DNA of 40,068 nt from Burkholderiales bacterium (GTDB lineage: Bacteria > Pseudomonadota > Gammaproteobacteria > Burkholderiales > JAHFRG01). Every line of letters starts with the position of its first letter. Within the stretch, counting starts at the first letter, position 1. Below the pieces are notes generated by a model. That model saw nothing but the letters and a program-made list of their open reading frames with translations, had not been told where the DNA came from and did no database searches. The DNA is taken from contig DASZZH010000010.1 in NCBI GenBank assembly GCA_035543335.1, positions 1 through 40,068 of the forward strand, given 5' to 3'. Both the position numbers and the translations under genes were made by a program. Shown piece by piece: positions 11,880 to 40,068 of the stretch.

Positions 11880-12373
11880 GGAACCTCTGATTAAGTCCTC
11901 CGTGGAGCGCGTTTCTGGCGCAATGCGGATGATTGCAAGGCGCGCGACGAAGGTGCCTAGCCGTAGCTTAAGCACAAGGAGCGCAACGACGCAAGCGCTG
12001 CATTTCGCCGAAACCCGGTCGGGACGGCTGCCGCGACACGGTCAGCGAAGCTGGGGTGCGGGAGCGGCAGCATGAGCGCCCCGTTTAACAGTGATTCTTG
12101 CGGCAGCTTGCGCCCCTGCCCGCACCACGCTTCGCAAGACCGAGTCCGGGGCGCCTTCTCGGGCGATCTGTTTTGTCGCTCGGCTGGCGAAGGGGGGTCA
12201 ACCATTCGCTGCGCCTCGCTTCGCGTGTGCGCTCGCGGACCGTCGCGCCTCGGAACGTGCGCAGGGGAGCGAGCGCAGCGCCGCCTCCGGGTCGCACTGC
12301 CGAGGCTCCGCCTGCGGCGGCGCTATCCCGAAAAGCCAGCGTCGCGCCCTCGTGGGACTTAATCAGAGGTTCC
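11880..12373 (+). mobile_element. Hairpin element copy 1 (494 bp, inside ABC operon)
   Basis: Bounded by terminal inverted repeats GGAACCTCTGATTAAGTCC (11880-11898) and its complement ending at 12373. The left hairpin unit has outer arms GTTTCTGGCGCAATGCGG (11911-11928) and GCTGCATTTCGCCGAAAC (11997-12014), paired except for a bulged T and two mismatches; the inner loop is GTGC...GCAC. The right end matches the second, inverted unit of copies 2 and 3 (CTGTTTTGTCGCTCGGCT and GCTGCGCCTCGCTTCGCG). About 220 extra bp in the middle and right part, including GCTGCCGC/GCGGCAGC palindromes, make it longer than the 275-bp copies. No ORF in it looks like a gene. Flanks are TTAA and CTAC, so no exact target duplication. 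Confidence 0.85.
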
Positions 12374-18939: not shown

Positions 18940-19214
18940 GGAACCTCTGATTAAGTCCCACGCGGTTGCGACGGCGGTTTTCCGGGATGGGATGCGCGAA
19001 GCGAGGCGCAGCCAATGGCCAGACCCCCTTGGCAAGCCGAGCGACAAAGCAGACCGCCCGGAAAGCCCCGTCCCTCCGGGTTGCGGTAAAATGCGGCGTC
19101 TGCGTCGTTGCGCTCCTCGGCCTCGTAGTTCCGGCTACGACCTTCGTCGCGCGCCTCGCATACGTCCGCATTTTGCCAGCAACGCAATTCGCGGAGGACT
19201 TAATCAGAGGTTCC
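18940..19214 (-). mobile_element. Hairpin element copy 2 (275 bp)
   Basis: Terminal inverted repeats GGAACCTCTGATTAAGTCC (18940-18958) and the complement ending GGTTCC at 19214. Unit one: arms 19080-19096 (GTTGCGGTAAAATGCGG) and 19166-19183 (CCGCATTTTGCCAGCAAC), with inner hairpin TCGTAG/CTACGA at 19123-19140. Unit two, inverted: arms 18970-18986 (GACGGCGGTTTTCCGGG) and 19057-19072 (CCCGGAAAGCCCCGTC), with inner stem GCCAA/TTGGC (19011-19033). Each outer stem has a single bulged base at the same place. It is about 95% identical to copy 3 by eye. It fills the divergent promoter region between the Rieske gene and xseB and supplies the AGAGG in front of xseB. Flanks TTAA/CTAA. Confidence 0.9.
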
Positions 19215-19217
19215 CTA

Positions 19218-19451
19218 ATGGCCAAAACCAAACCCCAGACCTTTGAAACCGCGCTCACCGAGCTGGAGAGCATCATCGCCAGCATGGAGGCGGGGCAGCT
19301 GCCGCTCGAACAGTCTTTGACCGCCTACAAGCGCGGTGCGGAGCTTCTCAAATACTGTCAGGGCGCGCTTGCTAAAGCGCAGCAGCAGGTCAAAATTCTC
19401 GAAGCCGACACGCTGAAAAATTTCTCCGGTGCCGACGATACCAACGGATGA
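19218..19451 (+). CDS. xseB: Exodeoxyribonuclease VII small subunit
   Basis: 77 residues, the usual length. The helical core FETALTELESIIASMEAGQLPLEQSLTAYKRG is the XseB signature, followed by LLKYCQGALAKAQQQVKIL. XseB binds in several copies to XseA to form exonuclease VII, which degrades single-stranded DNA in mismatch repair and crosslink processing. The Shine-Dalgarno is AGAGG at 19206-19210, seven nt upstream, and lies inside the terminal repeat of hairpin element copy 2. The ispA frame begins 23 nt before its stop, an xseB-ispA order common in proteobacteria (often followed by dxs, which is not here). Confidence 0.95.
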   Translation: MAKTKPQTFETALTELESIIASMEAGQLPLEQSLTAYKRGAELLKYCQGALAKAQQQVKILEADTLKNFSGADDTNG

Positions 19452-21329: not shown

Positions 21330-21964
21330 GTCATCTGCGTGCCTTCACGCTTCATTTCCACGCGGTTCAGGAAGCTCATTCCCAGCAGCGCTAGCGGCAG
21401 GGCATTGCCTTCGTGTACCTGCGCATCGACGTTGTTCATGGAAATGTCGCCAAGCTTCACCTCGTCCAGCTTCACCGTATAGACCGGAACAACGCCGTTG
21501 GCGGTGGAAACCAGGCCGCGCTGCCCTTTGAGGTAATTGATGCCCAGCCGCTTGGCCTCAACGCTGGAAATCGAAATCATGGTCGCGCCGGTATCGATTA
21601 GGAATTTTACCGGCGCGCCGTTGACGCTGCCTTCCGAAAAAAAGTGTCCGTTTGAGTCGGCAAACAGAGTGACGCTGGCATTTTCGGTGGCGGCAAAATT
21701 CGCAGTGATGGCCTGGCCAAGGCCCAGCACCTGCCGCTTGCCGTCGATTTCAAATTCCGCTGATTCGGAATTGGCGCTGATCAGTTTCACTCCCTCCGGA
21801 GAGGTCTGGCCGTTGCTCAAGGTGCGCGGTTTGCCGCCGTCGATGGTCACCACCACCTTGCCCGGGAAAAGCCCGACGACGTTCACATCCATGGCGGAAG
21901 CCAGGCCCGGGATGAATAGGAAAAGCAGGCAAGTCAGACTGAGGAGCCTCTGATTAAGTCCCAC
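21311..21964 (-). CDS. Retropepsin-like aspartic protease, exported; start supplied by hairpin element
   Basis: 217 residues from GTG 21964. Hydrophobic signal peptide LLSLTCLLFLFIPGLASA, mature start near MDVNVVGLFPGK. The protease domain has the catalytic FLIDTGATMISIS (about 115) and, near the end, LALLGMSFLNRVEM, the second conserved motif of the clan AA 'TIGR02281-like' single-domain periplasmic proteases. The domain works as a homodimer. There is no ATG in frame ahead of the signal peptide: the only start codon with a plausible position is GTG within the terminal repeat of hairpin element copy 3, which has evidently replaced the original 5' end. The new N-terminus would read MGLNQR before the signal. 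No ribosome-binding site is visible. Confidence 0.75.
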   Translation of the reverse strand: MGLNQRLLSLTCLLFLFIPGLASAMDVNVVGLFPGKVVVTIDGGKPRTLSNGQTSPEGVKLISANSESAEFEIDGKRQVLGLGQAITANFAATENASVTLFADSNGHFFSEGSVNGAPVKFLIDTGATMISISSVEAKRLGINYLKGQRGLVSTANGVVPVYTVKLDEVKLGDISMNNVDAQVHEGNALPLALLGMSFLNRVEMKREGTQMTLIKRY

Positions 21965-22217
21965 GCGGTTGCGACGGCGGCTTTCCGGGATGGGATGCGC
22001 GAAGCGAGGCGCAGCCAATGGCCATTCCCCTTGGCAAGCCGAGCGACAAAGCAGACCGCCCGAACAAGCCCCGTCCCTCCGGGTTGCGGTAAAATGCGGC
22101 GTCTGCGTCGTTGCGCTCCTCGGTGTCGTAGTTCCGGCTACGACCTTCGTCGCGCGCCTCGTATCCATCCGCATTTTGCCAGCAACGCAATTCGCGGAGG
22201 ACTTAATCAGAGGCTCC
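21943..22217 (-). mobile_element. Hairpin element copy 3 (275 bp)
   Basis: Same length, orientation and architecture as copy 2. Terminal repeats are GGAGCCTCTGATTAAGTCC (21943-21961) and its complement ending GGCTCC at 22217; compared with copy 2 both ends carry the matching A/T to G/C change, so they remain complementary. Unit one arms 22083-22099 and 22169-22186 (GTTGCGGTAAAATGCGG / CCGCATTTTGCCAGCAAC), inner hairpin 22126-22143. Unit two differs in several arm positions from copy 2 (CGGCTTTCCGGG / CCCGAACAAGCC). It sits in the divergent region between the aspartic protease and the amidotransferase. Flanks CTGA/TTAT. Confidence 0.9.
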
Positions 22218-24753: not shown

Positions 24754-24810
24754 GATTCATTCCTTTACCCGCAATCACCGCACGGTGGACAGAAAAAACC
24801 AAAAATCTTC

Positions 24811-24893
24811 AGCCACAGAGGACACAGAGATCACAGAGAAAGAACTAACAATCCTGTCTTACTCGCTGTGCTTTTGTGTTCTCTGTGGCCAAT
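24811..24893. repeat. Palindromic CCACAGAG repeat, copy 1
   Basis: Begins AGCCACAGAGGACACAGAG and ends CTCTGTGGCCAAT, which makes an imperfect inverted repeat over 83 bp. A second copy starts 103 bp further on. It lies between yajQ and argG. This 'CACAGAG..CTCTGTG' repeat type is common in environmental bacterial genomes. Confidence 0.65.
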
Positions 24894-24913
24894 CAGCACA
24901 ACCTGCAGTCTTC

Positions 24914-24996
24914 AGCCACAGAGTTCACAGAGAGCGCGGAGAAAAACTGACAAGTTCTGCCTTACCTCTGTGTGCTCTGTGTCCTCTGTGGCCAAT
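24914..24996. repeat. Palindromic CCACAGAG repeat, copy 2
   Basis: AGCCACAGAGTTCACAGAG at the left and GTCCTCTGTGGCCAAT at the right; the same length (83 bp) and orientation as the first copy, with divergence mostly in the middle. Together the two occupy nearly all of the 269-nt gap between yajQ and argG. Confidence 0.65.
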
Positions 24997-25022
24997 GCTT
25001 TTGTCTTTAATGTTTTGGTGGT

Positions 25023-38655: not shown

Positions 38656-39938
38656 TGTCGGCCATCGAAAAAATCGCTTTCCCGGACATCGAGCTGTCGC
38701 GCTTCATCACCGCCGGCAGCGTGGATGACGGCAAGAGCACGCTGATCGGCCGGCTGCTCTACGATTCCAAATCCATTTTCGAAGACCAGCTCACGGCGAT
38801 TGAAAAAACCACCCGGCGCAAAGGGCTGGAAGGGGTGGATTTGTCGCTGCTCACCGACGGCCTGCAGGCCGAGCGCGAGCAGGGCATCACGATTGACGTC
38901 GCCTACCGCTATTTCGCCACGCCCAATCGCAAGTTCATTATCGCCGACACGCCCGGCCACGAGCAGTACACCCGCAACATGGTGACCGGCGCCAGCACCG
39001 CGAATCTGGCGGTGGTTCTGATTGATGCGCGCAAGGGCGTGCTTACCCAGTCGCGCCGCCACGCCTACATCGCGTCGCTGGTCGGCATTCCGCATTTGGT
39101 GGTGGCGGTGAACAAAATGGACCTGGTGGGTTATTCGCAGGACGTGTTCAACGTCATCAAGCAGGATTTTTCCGCTTTCGCCGACCGGCTCAACATTCAT
39201 GACATCCATTACATTCCGATATCGGCACTGCATGGCGACATGGTGGTGGAGCGTGGCGATAATTTGCAATGGTACGAGGGCAAGCCGATGCTGGAACTGC
39301 TGGAAACCGTCGAGATCGCCAGCGACATCAACATCCAGGACTTCCGCTTCCCGGTGCAGTGGGTGTGCCGTCCCGCCGATCCCGCCTATCAGGATTTCCG
39401 CGGCTACATGGGCCGCATCGAGTCCGGCGAAATCCGTGTCGGCGACAAGATCACAGTATTGCCCTCGGGGCTGACCTCCGCGGTGAAGGAAATCGCCACC
39501 TTAAGTGCCAAACATGAGTTGGGGTTTGCGCCGCAGTCCGTCACCCTGCAGATCGAAGATCACATCGACATTTCGCGCGGCGACATGCTGGTGAAAAGCG
39601 ACAACCTGCCGCAGACTACCAGGGAATTCGGCGCCATGCTGTGCTGGCTCTCCGAGCAGCCGTTGGATGTGCACCGCAAATATTTCGTCAAGCACACCAC
39701 CAAGACGGTGAAGGGCTTGGTTTCGCAACTGGATTACCGGGTGGACGTGAATACCCTCGAGCGGGTTGGCGGAATAACGGAACTCAGGATGAACGAAATC
39801 GGGTGTGTCAGATTAAAAGTGCAGCAGCCGCTGATGTGGGACGCGTACGACCGGAATCGCGCCACCGGCAGCTTTATCCTGATCGATGAAGCCACGCAAA
39901 ACACCGTTGCGGCGGGAATGATTATTGAGAGCCTCTAA
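38655..39938 (+). CDS. cysN: Sulfate adenylyltransferase subunit 1 (GTPase)
   Basis: 427 residues. EF-Tu-like GTPase that drives sulfate adenylylation. P-loop GSVDDGKSTLIGRLLYD (about 17-33), G2/G3 EQGITIDVAYRYF and DTPGHEQY (about 98-105), G4 NKMD (about 153). It has beta-barrel domains and no C-terminal APS kinase fusion, which fits the APS-reducing route of the operon. The last codons (GAG AGC CTC TAA) coincide with the start of the divergent hairpin-element copy 4, so the original C-terminus may have been slightly altered. Confidence 0.95.
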   Translation: MSAIEKIAFPDIELSRFITAGSVDDGKSTLIGRLLYDSKSIFEDQLTAIEKTTRRKGLEGVDLSLLTDGLQAEREQGITIDVAYRYFATPNRKFIIADTPGHEQYTRNMVTGASTANLAVVLIDARKGVLTQSRRHAYIASLVGIPHLVVAVNKMDLVGYSQDVFNVIKQDFSAFADRLNIHDIHYIPISALHGDMVVERGDNLQWYEGKPMLELLETVEIASDINIQDFRFPVQWVCRPADPAYQDFRGYMGRIESGEIRVGDKITVLPSGLTSAVKEIATLSAKHELGFAPQSVTLQIEDHIDISRGDMLVKSDNLPQTTREFGAMLCWLSEQPLDVHRKYFVKHTTKTVKGLVSQLDYRVDVNTLERVGGITELRMNEIGCVRLKVQQPLMWDAYDRNRATGSFILIDEATQNTVAAGMIIESL

Positions 39939-40068
39939 CATAATGAAACGGATTTGCGTTGCTGGCCAAAAAGCGATGAATGCGCGACGCGAGGCGTAAC
40001 TCGATGCCGGGACATCGAGTAAGCCGAGCAACAAAGCAGGCGCGCTTTTTGGCCGCAACCCTTGGGGA
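39929..40068 (+). mobile_element. Hairpin element copy 4 (divergent, cut by window end)
   Basis: Starts GAGCCTCTAACATAATGAAAC, a degenerate version of the terminal repeat (GGAGCCTCTGATTAAGTCC), overlapping the cysN stop. Unit one is complete: arms GTTGCTGGCCAAAAAGCG (39958-39975) and CGCTTTTTGGCCGCAAC (40043-40059) pair fully except for the one bulged T, and the apical hairpin ACTCGATG/CATCGAGT (39999-40020) has loop CCGGGA. The arm sequences differ from copies 2 and 3 yet remain complementary. Whether a second unit and right terminal repeat follow lies outside the window. Confidence 0.75.

Follow-up and report, generated by a model that had tools for sequence, protein, structure and literature searches.

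Short gene-free elements with a conserved two-hairpin core and ends resembling IS5-type insertion sequences in a Burkholderiales genome

The window analyzed, 40,068 nt long, is a whole contig (C10) of a Burkholderiales genome of 2.25 Mb in 41 contigs. Copies of a repeated sequence, located by the initial annotation at 11880-12373, 18940-19214 and 21943-22217 (copies 1, 2 and 3), with a partial one starting at 39929, were verified at all four sites. The terminal inverted repeat (TIR) bounding the 275-bp form, GGAACCTCTGATTAAGTCC, occurs six times in the window when up to 3 mismatches are allowed, against a chance expectation of 0.02 sites; the six occurrences form three inverted pairs, at 11880/12373, 18940/19214 and 21943/22217. 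The elements are short, feature TIRs and, as first described, contain no gene, a transposase gene included.

Copy 2, delimited by TIR search and by its flanks, is a complete 275-bp element (18940-19214) of TIR class T1. Its left TIR (18940-18958, plus strand) reads GGAACCTCTGATTAAGTCC and is preceded by TTAA, while the right one (19196-19214, minus strand) is followed by CTAA. Inside are two hairpin units in opposite orientation: unit A, at 18970-19072 on the minus strand, with an outer helix of the GACGG type, and unit B, at 19080-19183 on the plus strand, of the GTTGC/GCAAC type. Their originally proposed limits are base-exact according to R1, a covariance model built from 28 units of ten genomes, which scores them 97.6 and 90.4 bits, respectively. 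The head-to-head units are separated by a central mini-hairpin region, CCTCCGG (19073-19079), as indicated by folding. Folding also returns the plan that the units had been reported to share, composed of a 5-bp outer helix, GG/CC with one bulged base, a long helix, internal loops and an apical hairpin.

Copy 3 (21943-22217), a complete 275-bp element with TIRs GGAGCCTCTGATTAAGTCC, is 95% identical to copy 2, and R1 places its units A and B at 21973-22075 (minus strand) and 22083-22186 (plus strand). Copy 1 (11880-12373), whose TIRs are as those of copies 2 and 3, aligns as a 275-bp element enlarged to 494 bp through two module insertions. Its unit in the GTTGC-type position is located at 11911-12014 (minus strand; R1, 71 bits) and is followed by module X, of about 130 nt and two hairpins, common to other TIR classes (12026-12155, limits from the alignment); the second unit (12148-12249, plus strand; R1) is broken by the other module, at about 12230-12324. 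The fourth copy is a half element of TIR class T3, GAGCCTCTAACATAATGAAACG, at 39929-40068, truncated by the contig end at the center of the palindrome; its hairpin unit, at 39958-40059 on the minus strand, scores 91.7 bits.

A Shine-Dalgarno-like AGAGG, found 8 bases before the start codon of xseB (region 19196-19220), may come from the right TIR of copy 2; the ATPase gene at copy 1 and cysN (39938) obtain their stop codons from the TIR, as CTCTGA or CTCTAA. A separate set of direct and inverted repeats, with CCACAGAGGACACAGAG as building block, lies between two genes at 24797-25002 and is unrelated to the hairpin elements.

Further copies, sought in the genome and in its relatives, are numerous, both as TIR pairs and as R1 units. 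Genome-wide, T1 TIR sites (up to 2 mismatches) amount to 59 forward and 59 reverse, where a reversed control pattern gives 0, and R1 finds at least 122 units. Eleven contigs begin or end within hairpin units (C7, C11, C13, C14, C16, C18, C21, C27, C36, C38 and C39), indicating that the elements break the assembly and that the copy numbers given here are minimum values. In stretches taken around elements, 50 paired elements were readable; their lengths cluster at 275, 367, 494, 580, 687 and 787 bp. Two-hairpin modules of two kinds, X and Y, respectively about 130 and about 100 nt long, are present at fixed points within units and are common to several TIR classes; they were seen at L069, L078, L083 and L092, besides window positions 12026-12155, and some are in tandem. 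Two TIR-only palindromes of 48-50 bp (L068:740-787, L077:707-756) are empty between their TIRs. Single-unit forms also exist: one element (L249:598-699, C28:198497), missing unit A, has a TIR of its own.

Target sites were evaluated on the same 50 elements. A YTAR sequence flanks the left end in 28 of them and the right end in 22, while YTAR accounts for 0.34% of the 4-mers of the window. The left and right flanking 4-mers are identical in 8 elements only, indicating that many target duplications have decayed or are imperfect; elements from other genomes feature clear duplications of CTAG, CTAA, TTAG or TAA. Sites orthologous to those of the window were compared in two congeners. The copy 1 site reads TTAAGGAACCTCTGCTG in G002; copy 1 is flanked in our genome by 7-bp repeats, ACCTCTG, and the G002 sequence, being the remainder expected after a loss between these repeats, may be a deletion scar. 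At the same site G001 shows neither element nor scar, and copy 3 is also missing from its orthologous site in G001. The copy 2 site, on the other hand, is occupied there by a diverged element, and the insertion of copy 2 thus predates the species split.

The core shared by the elements consists of two diverged hairpin units of about 103 nt (96-106 nt), which face each other head to head, with a small CCNNNGG hairpin in between. A four-way plan, made of a TIR stem, unit A, the CCNNNGG mini-hairpin and unit B, is obtained for nearly every element folded. With units in this arrangement, each strand carries one sense unit and can fold into a cruciform, a four-way junction with the TIRs as its closing stem. 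A covariance model, suggested by the initial annotation as a check, could be built and reveals strong covariation: the consensus of the 28 units of R1 has 23 pairs, 21 of them with compensatory changes. When 134 distinct units are considered, 91.7% of the cells are paired, against 59.3% after shuffling, and the covariation score reaches 0.759, compared with 0.189 for shuffled and no more than 0.18 for slid controls. Loop positions are conserved up to 99%, as for GT at 28-29 and C at 74. Within the loops, non-Watson-Crick covariation links 21-81, 33-68 and 30-72, although it is confounded by the existence of two unit subfamilies.

The core is widespread. Within the order, 71 of 200 genomes contain R1 units, representing 45 of 108 genera; for the class, the figures are 98 of 369 genomes and 78 of 272 genera. 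Named genomes were analyzed by a pattern search, with matches checked by R1. Full head-to-head pairs are found in Azotobacter, Pseudomonas fluorescens, P. protegens, Aeromonas veronii, Solimonas, Nevskia and Nitrosospira, in a Mariprofundaceae MAG, and in several Acidobacteriaceae MAGs and one Phycisphaerales contig, for which, these last matches being MAGs, mis-binning is possible. One copy, flanked by two genes of the same direction, is carried by a conjugative plasmid of P. aeruginosa. No match to the core was found in the E. coli and phage collections.

A source element, with a transposase and matching TIRs, had been anticipated. Such elements are available in other genomes. An IS5-family transposase remnant follows TTAG and GGAACCACTGATTTATTCC in G038; G474 contains five near-identical 829-bp IS5-family elements with ends GGTTCTGTTGACGTTTC, G320 five 815-bp elements with ends GGGCGTGTTAACACTAAT, and G016 an 859-bp element with ends GAAGCTGTTTTAAAAAAT; a 1.34-kb element of G028, with ends CAGRCTGTTGAAATTC, scores with both the IS5_4 and IS1182 models. 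Transposases were assigned to the IS5 family through NCBIfam, two of them scoring a few bits below the curated cut-off. The TIR of hairpin elements matches the IS end of the same genome over 21 nt in G038, 18 nt in G474 and 15 nt in G320, and more weakly, at the same place, in G016; the hairpin elements of G032 match the IS of G028 over 20 nt. Scores between IS and hairpin-element TIRs range from 14 to 17, while 3,500 shuffles reach a maximum of 13. T1 scores best with the IS of G038, T2 with that of G028. The expected source was not detected in the genome under study: a search limited to the domains PF01609 and PF13586 finds no IS5-type transposase in this assembly, where multi-copy ISs may vanish at contig ends. 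The same two domains, searched in the same way, are absent from two closed genomes with many copies (G024, G044).

These data bear on the possibility that the elements are ordinary MITEs, i.e. internal deletions of several IS5-type elements, palindromic by accident, with a core devoid of any role and helices perfected by template-switch correction of quasi-palindromes. MITEs usually derive from ISs, according to a recent review (PMC10969869); the element ends do match ISs, and the deviations in the helices lack strand preference, as correction would yield. The core, however, has no similarity to the interior of the five ISs compared, nor does R1 find any unit inside them; in L444 one hairpin element adjoins an IS, but lies outside its limits. 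We accordingly reject a derivation of the elements from the matched ISs through internal deletion, even if such similarity is not a strict requirement for a MITE. More generally, one core, with loop positions conserved up to 99%, is joined to unrelated ends in several phyla, which independent deletions cannot produce. This explanation is weakened to the point of being unlikely.

The strong covariation and the conserved loops, which resemble those of Rfam families, would equally suit a structured RNA gene or mRNA element, such as a small RNA, a processing site or a regulator, carried on mobile ends, as the initial annotation had also considered. Helices of selected RNAs normally accept G·U much more readily than A·C. 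Among 2112 cells of the outer helices, 1965 hold Watson-Crick pairs, whereas G·T and A·C mismatches occupy 35 cells each, so that the excess of G-U over A-C looked for as a mark of single-strand RNA selection is absent; the equal rarity of the two suggests a structure maintained in DNA, as a cruciform, or perfected by palindrome correction. Correction without selection could also generate the equality, but correction alone cannot explain the conserved loops. The fold of the antisense strand is slightly more favorable than that of the sense strand, and a comparison of the units with Rfam 15, proposed from the start, gave no matching family at the gathering score nor at E <= 1. Elements are often found between co-directional genes, as on the P. 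aeruginosa plasmid: by a rough ORF estimate, the genes neighboring the 50 elements are tandem in 31 cases, divergent in 10 and convergent in 9, raw counts which reveal no obvious bias. With no G-U excess, one sense unit per strand and no Rfam match, an RNA gene is disfavored, and we regard it as quite unlikely; the elements may, alternatively, act through transcripts from both strands.

The ends vary much more than the core. At least four main TIR classes accompany it in this genome, T1 (GGAACCTCTGATTAAGTCC), T2 (CAGGGTGTTGAAGAACTCC), T3 (GAGCCTCTAACATAATGAAACG) and T4 (GAACCTATCTCAACAAT), with a fifth TIR, GGAACCTCTAAACAAGCCCC, present in one copy only, the one-unit element described above; at least seven more are found in other genomes (GAGCCTATTTCAGTAG, GGCGTCGAGAAACAATAAC, GGGCTCGTGAATGAATAAC, GGTCTGTTGACGTTT, GGCCTGTTAACACT, GGTGAATCGACATTC and GAAGCTGTCTTAACCC). 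When T1 and T2 elements of this genome are compared, cores are about 75% identical overall, ends 35%. A pair of Nevskia elements shares 94% identity in the core and 64% at the ends; their TIRs differ at both ends, and are still inverted repeats. Several loci (L261, L262 and L263, at the starts of C13, C14 and C18) hold T2 units without any difference over 103 nt, suggesting that T2 was recently amplified in this genome. A tree built from 70 cores requires 14 changes of TIR class, against a mean of 37 when classes are shuffled: ends are mostly inherited with the core and replaced at times. In this tree T2-ended elements nest within the T1-type, IS5-ended ones, with support of 95-100. The register between core and TIR is constant, about 30 nt, in all elements compared.

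The core might instead be an independent mobile hairpin module, inserting centrally into short palindromes, for instance solo TIR pairs, so that IS5-type ends would be mere targets. TIR-only palindromes do exist, and two-hairpin modules are inserted within units, but solo palindromes are equally explicable as internal deletions. The constant register, along with the tendency of TIR classes to follow the core tree, indicates that joining of core and ends is rare, and makes this possibility very unlikely. Still less credible is a REP/REPIN-like origin, with single-strand hairpins moved by a RAYT (Y1, HUH) transposase and TIRs acquired later: the head-to-head hairpins, bulged close to the foot, do recall the REPIN layout, but units are of about 100 nt rather than 20-40, target duplications and IS5-type TIRs mark nearly all elements, and no Y1 transposase (PF01797) is present in this genome, for which reason a RAYT origin was rejected.

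We therefore consider it probable that the repeats of the window are one family of a MITE-like, nonautonomous superfamily, defined by its core and moved in trans by IS5-type transposases. Mobilization in trans, one of the two options of the initial annotation, agrees with the YTAR sites, with the absence of elements in congeners and with the IS5-type TIR matches found elsewhere, the missing part being a source transposase in this assembly. Given IS5-type ends and insertion at YTAR, movement would most likely be catalyzed in trans by IS5-type transposases. Ends would be swapped or remodeled on both sides jointly, perhaps via arm-to-arm correction of small palindromes or via recombination, while the core persists. 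As to the function of the core, it would most likely act as DNA, a cruciform bringing the two short ends together, with the conserved internal loops probably bound by the transposase or by a host protein. A broader proposal is put forward tentatively, as a possibility which we do not hold to be the likelier outcome: that all these elements form a single ancient class of DNA satellites, spanning Pseudomonadota, Acidobacteriota and possibly Planctomycetota, whose cruciform core is a cis-acting device, probably recognized by a conserved cellular or transposase factor, letting the element adopt the ends of a resident IS5-type transposon.

MITEs are usually seen as dead offshoots of one transposon, recognized by their ends; here inheritance concerns the interior, while the ends can change, and the core is present in roughly one quarter to one third of the sampled genomes. 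If this is true, a non-coding DNA fold is a possible unit of selection of a mobile element, and the family offers a natural system for studying cruciform function in transposition. It would also account for many unexplained repeats and contig breaks, and the model could annotate such elements across thousands of genomes.

No earlier description of the family was found in the literature searched; ISfinder and subscription papers, outside its scope, may hold one. Two candidates were compared and rejected. The integron attC site has RYYYAAC...GTTRRRY ends, while units run GTTGC...GCAAC or GACGG...CCGTC, in the opposite order; the Aeromonas pAC3 MITE has a core of 75 bp. Among the P. fluorescens intergenic repeats R0, R2, R178 and R200 (Silby 2009, PMC2718517), R0 and R2, proposed as MITEs for their IS-matching ends, are too short (89 and 110 bp) to hold two units. 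R178, a 101-bp repeat common to all three strains, is as long as a single unit and could, by length alone, be a unit of this family; compared by description, R178 or R200 may partly overlap with it.

REP, BIME and REPIN sequences are, like the hairpin elements, intergenic, high-copy pairs of inverted imperfect hairpins, but their 20-40-nt units, GTAG/CGTC tags, lack of TIRs and target duplications, and movement by RAYT are not shared by the hairpin elements. The IS5 family (NCBIfam IS5_3, IS5_4) features similar TIRs of 15-21 nt and 3-4-bp YTAR or TAA duplications; it has a transposase gene and no hairpin core, while the reverse is true for the hairpin elements. Closest are the IS-derived bacterial MITEs, such as QMITE2, MITEAba12 and the Correia elements, described in the 2024 review of prokaryotic MITEs (PMC10969869), a term search of which reveals no core-defined family: they too are small, gene-free, intergenic and mobilizable in trans, with TIRs and target duplications. 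Known MITE families, however, are defined by their TIRs and come from one IS, while the hairpin elements combine one structured core, found in several phyla, with the ends of several IS groups.
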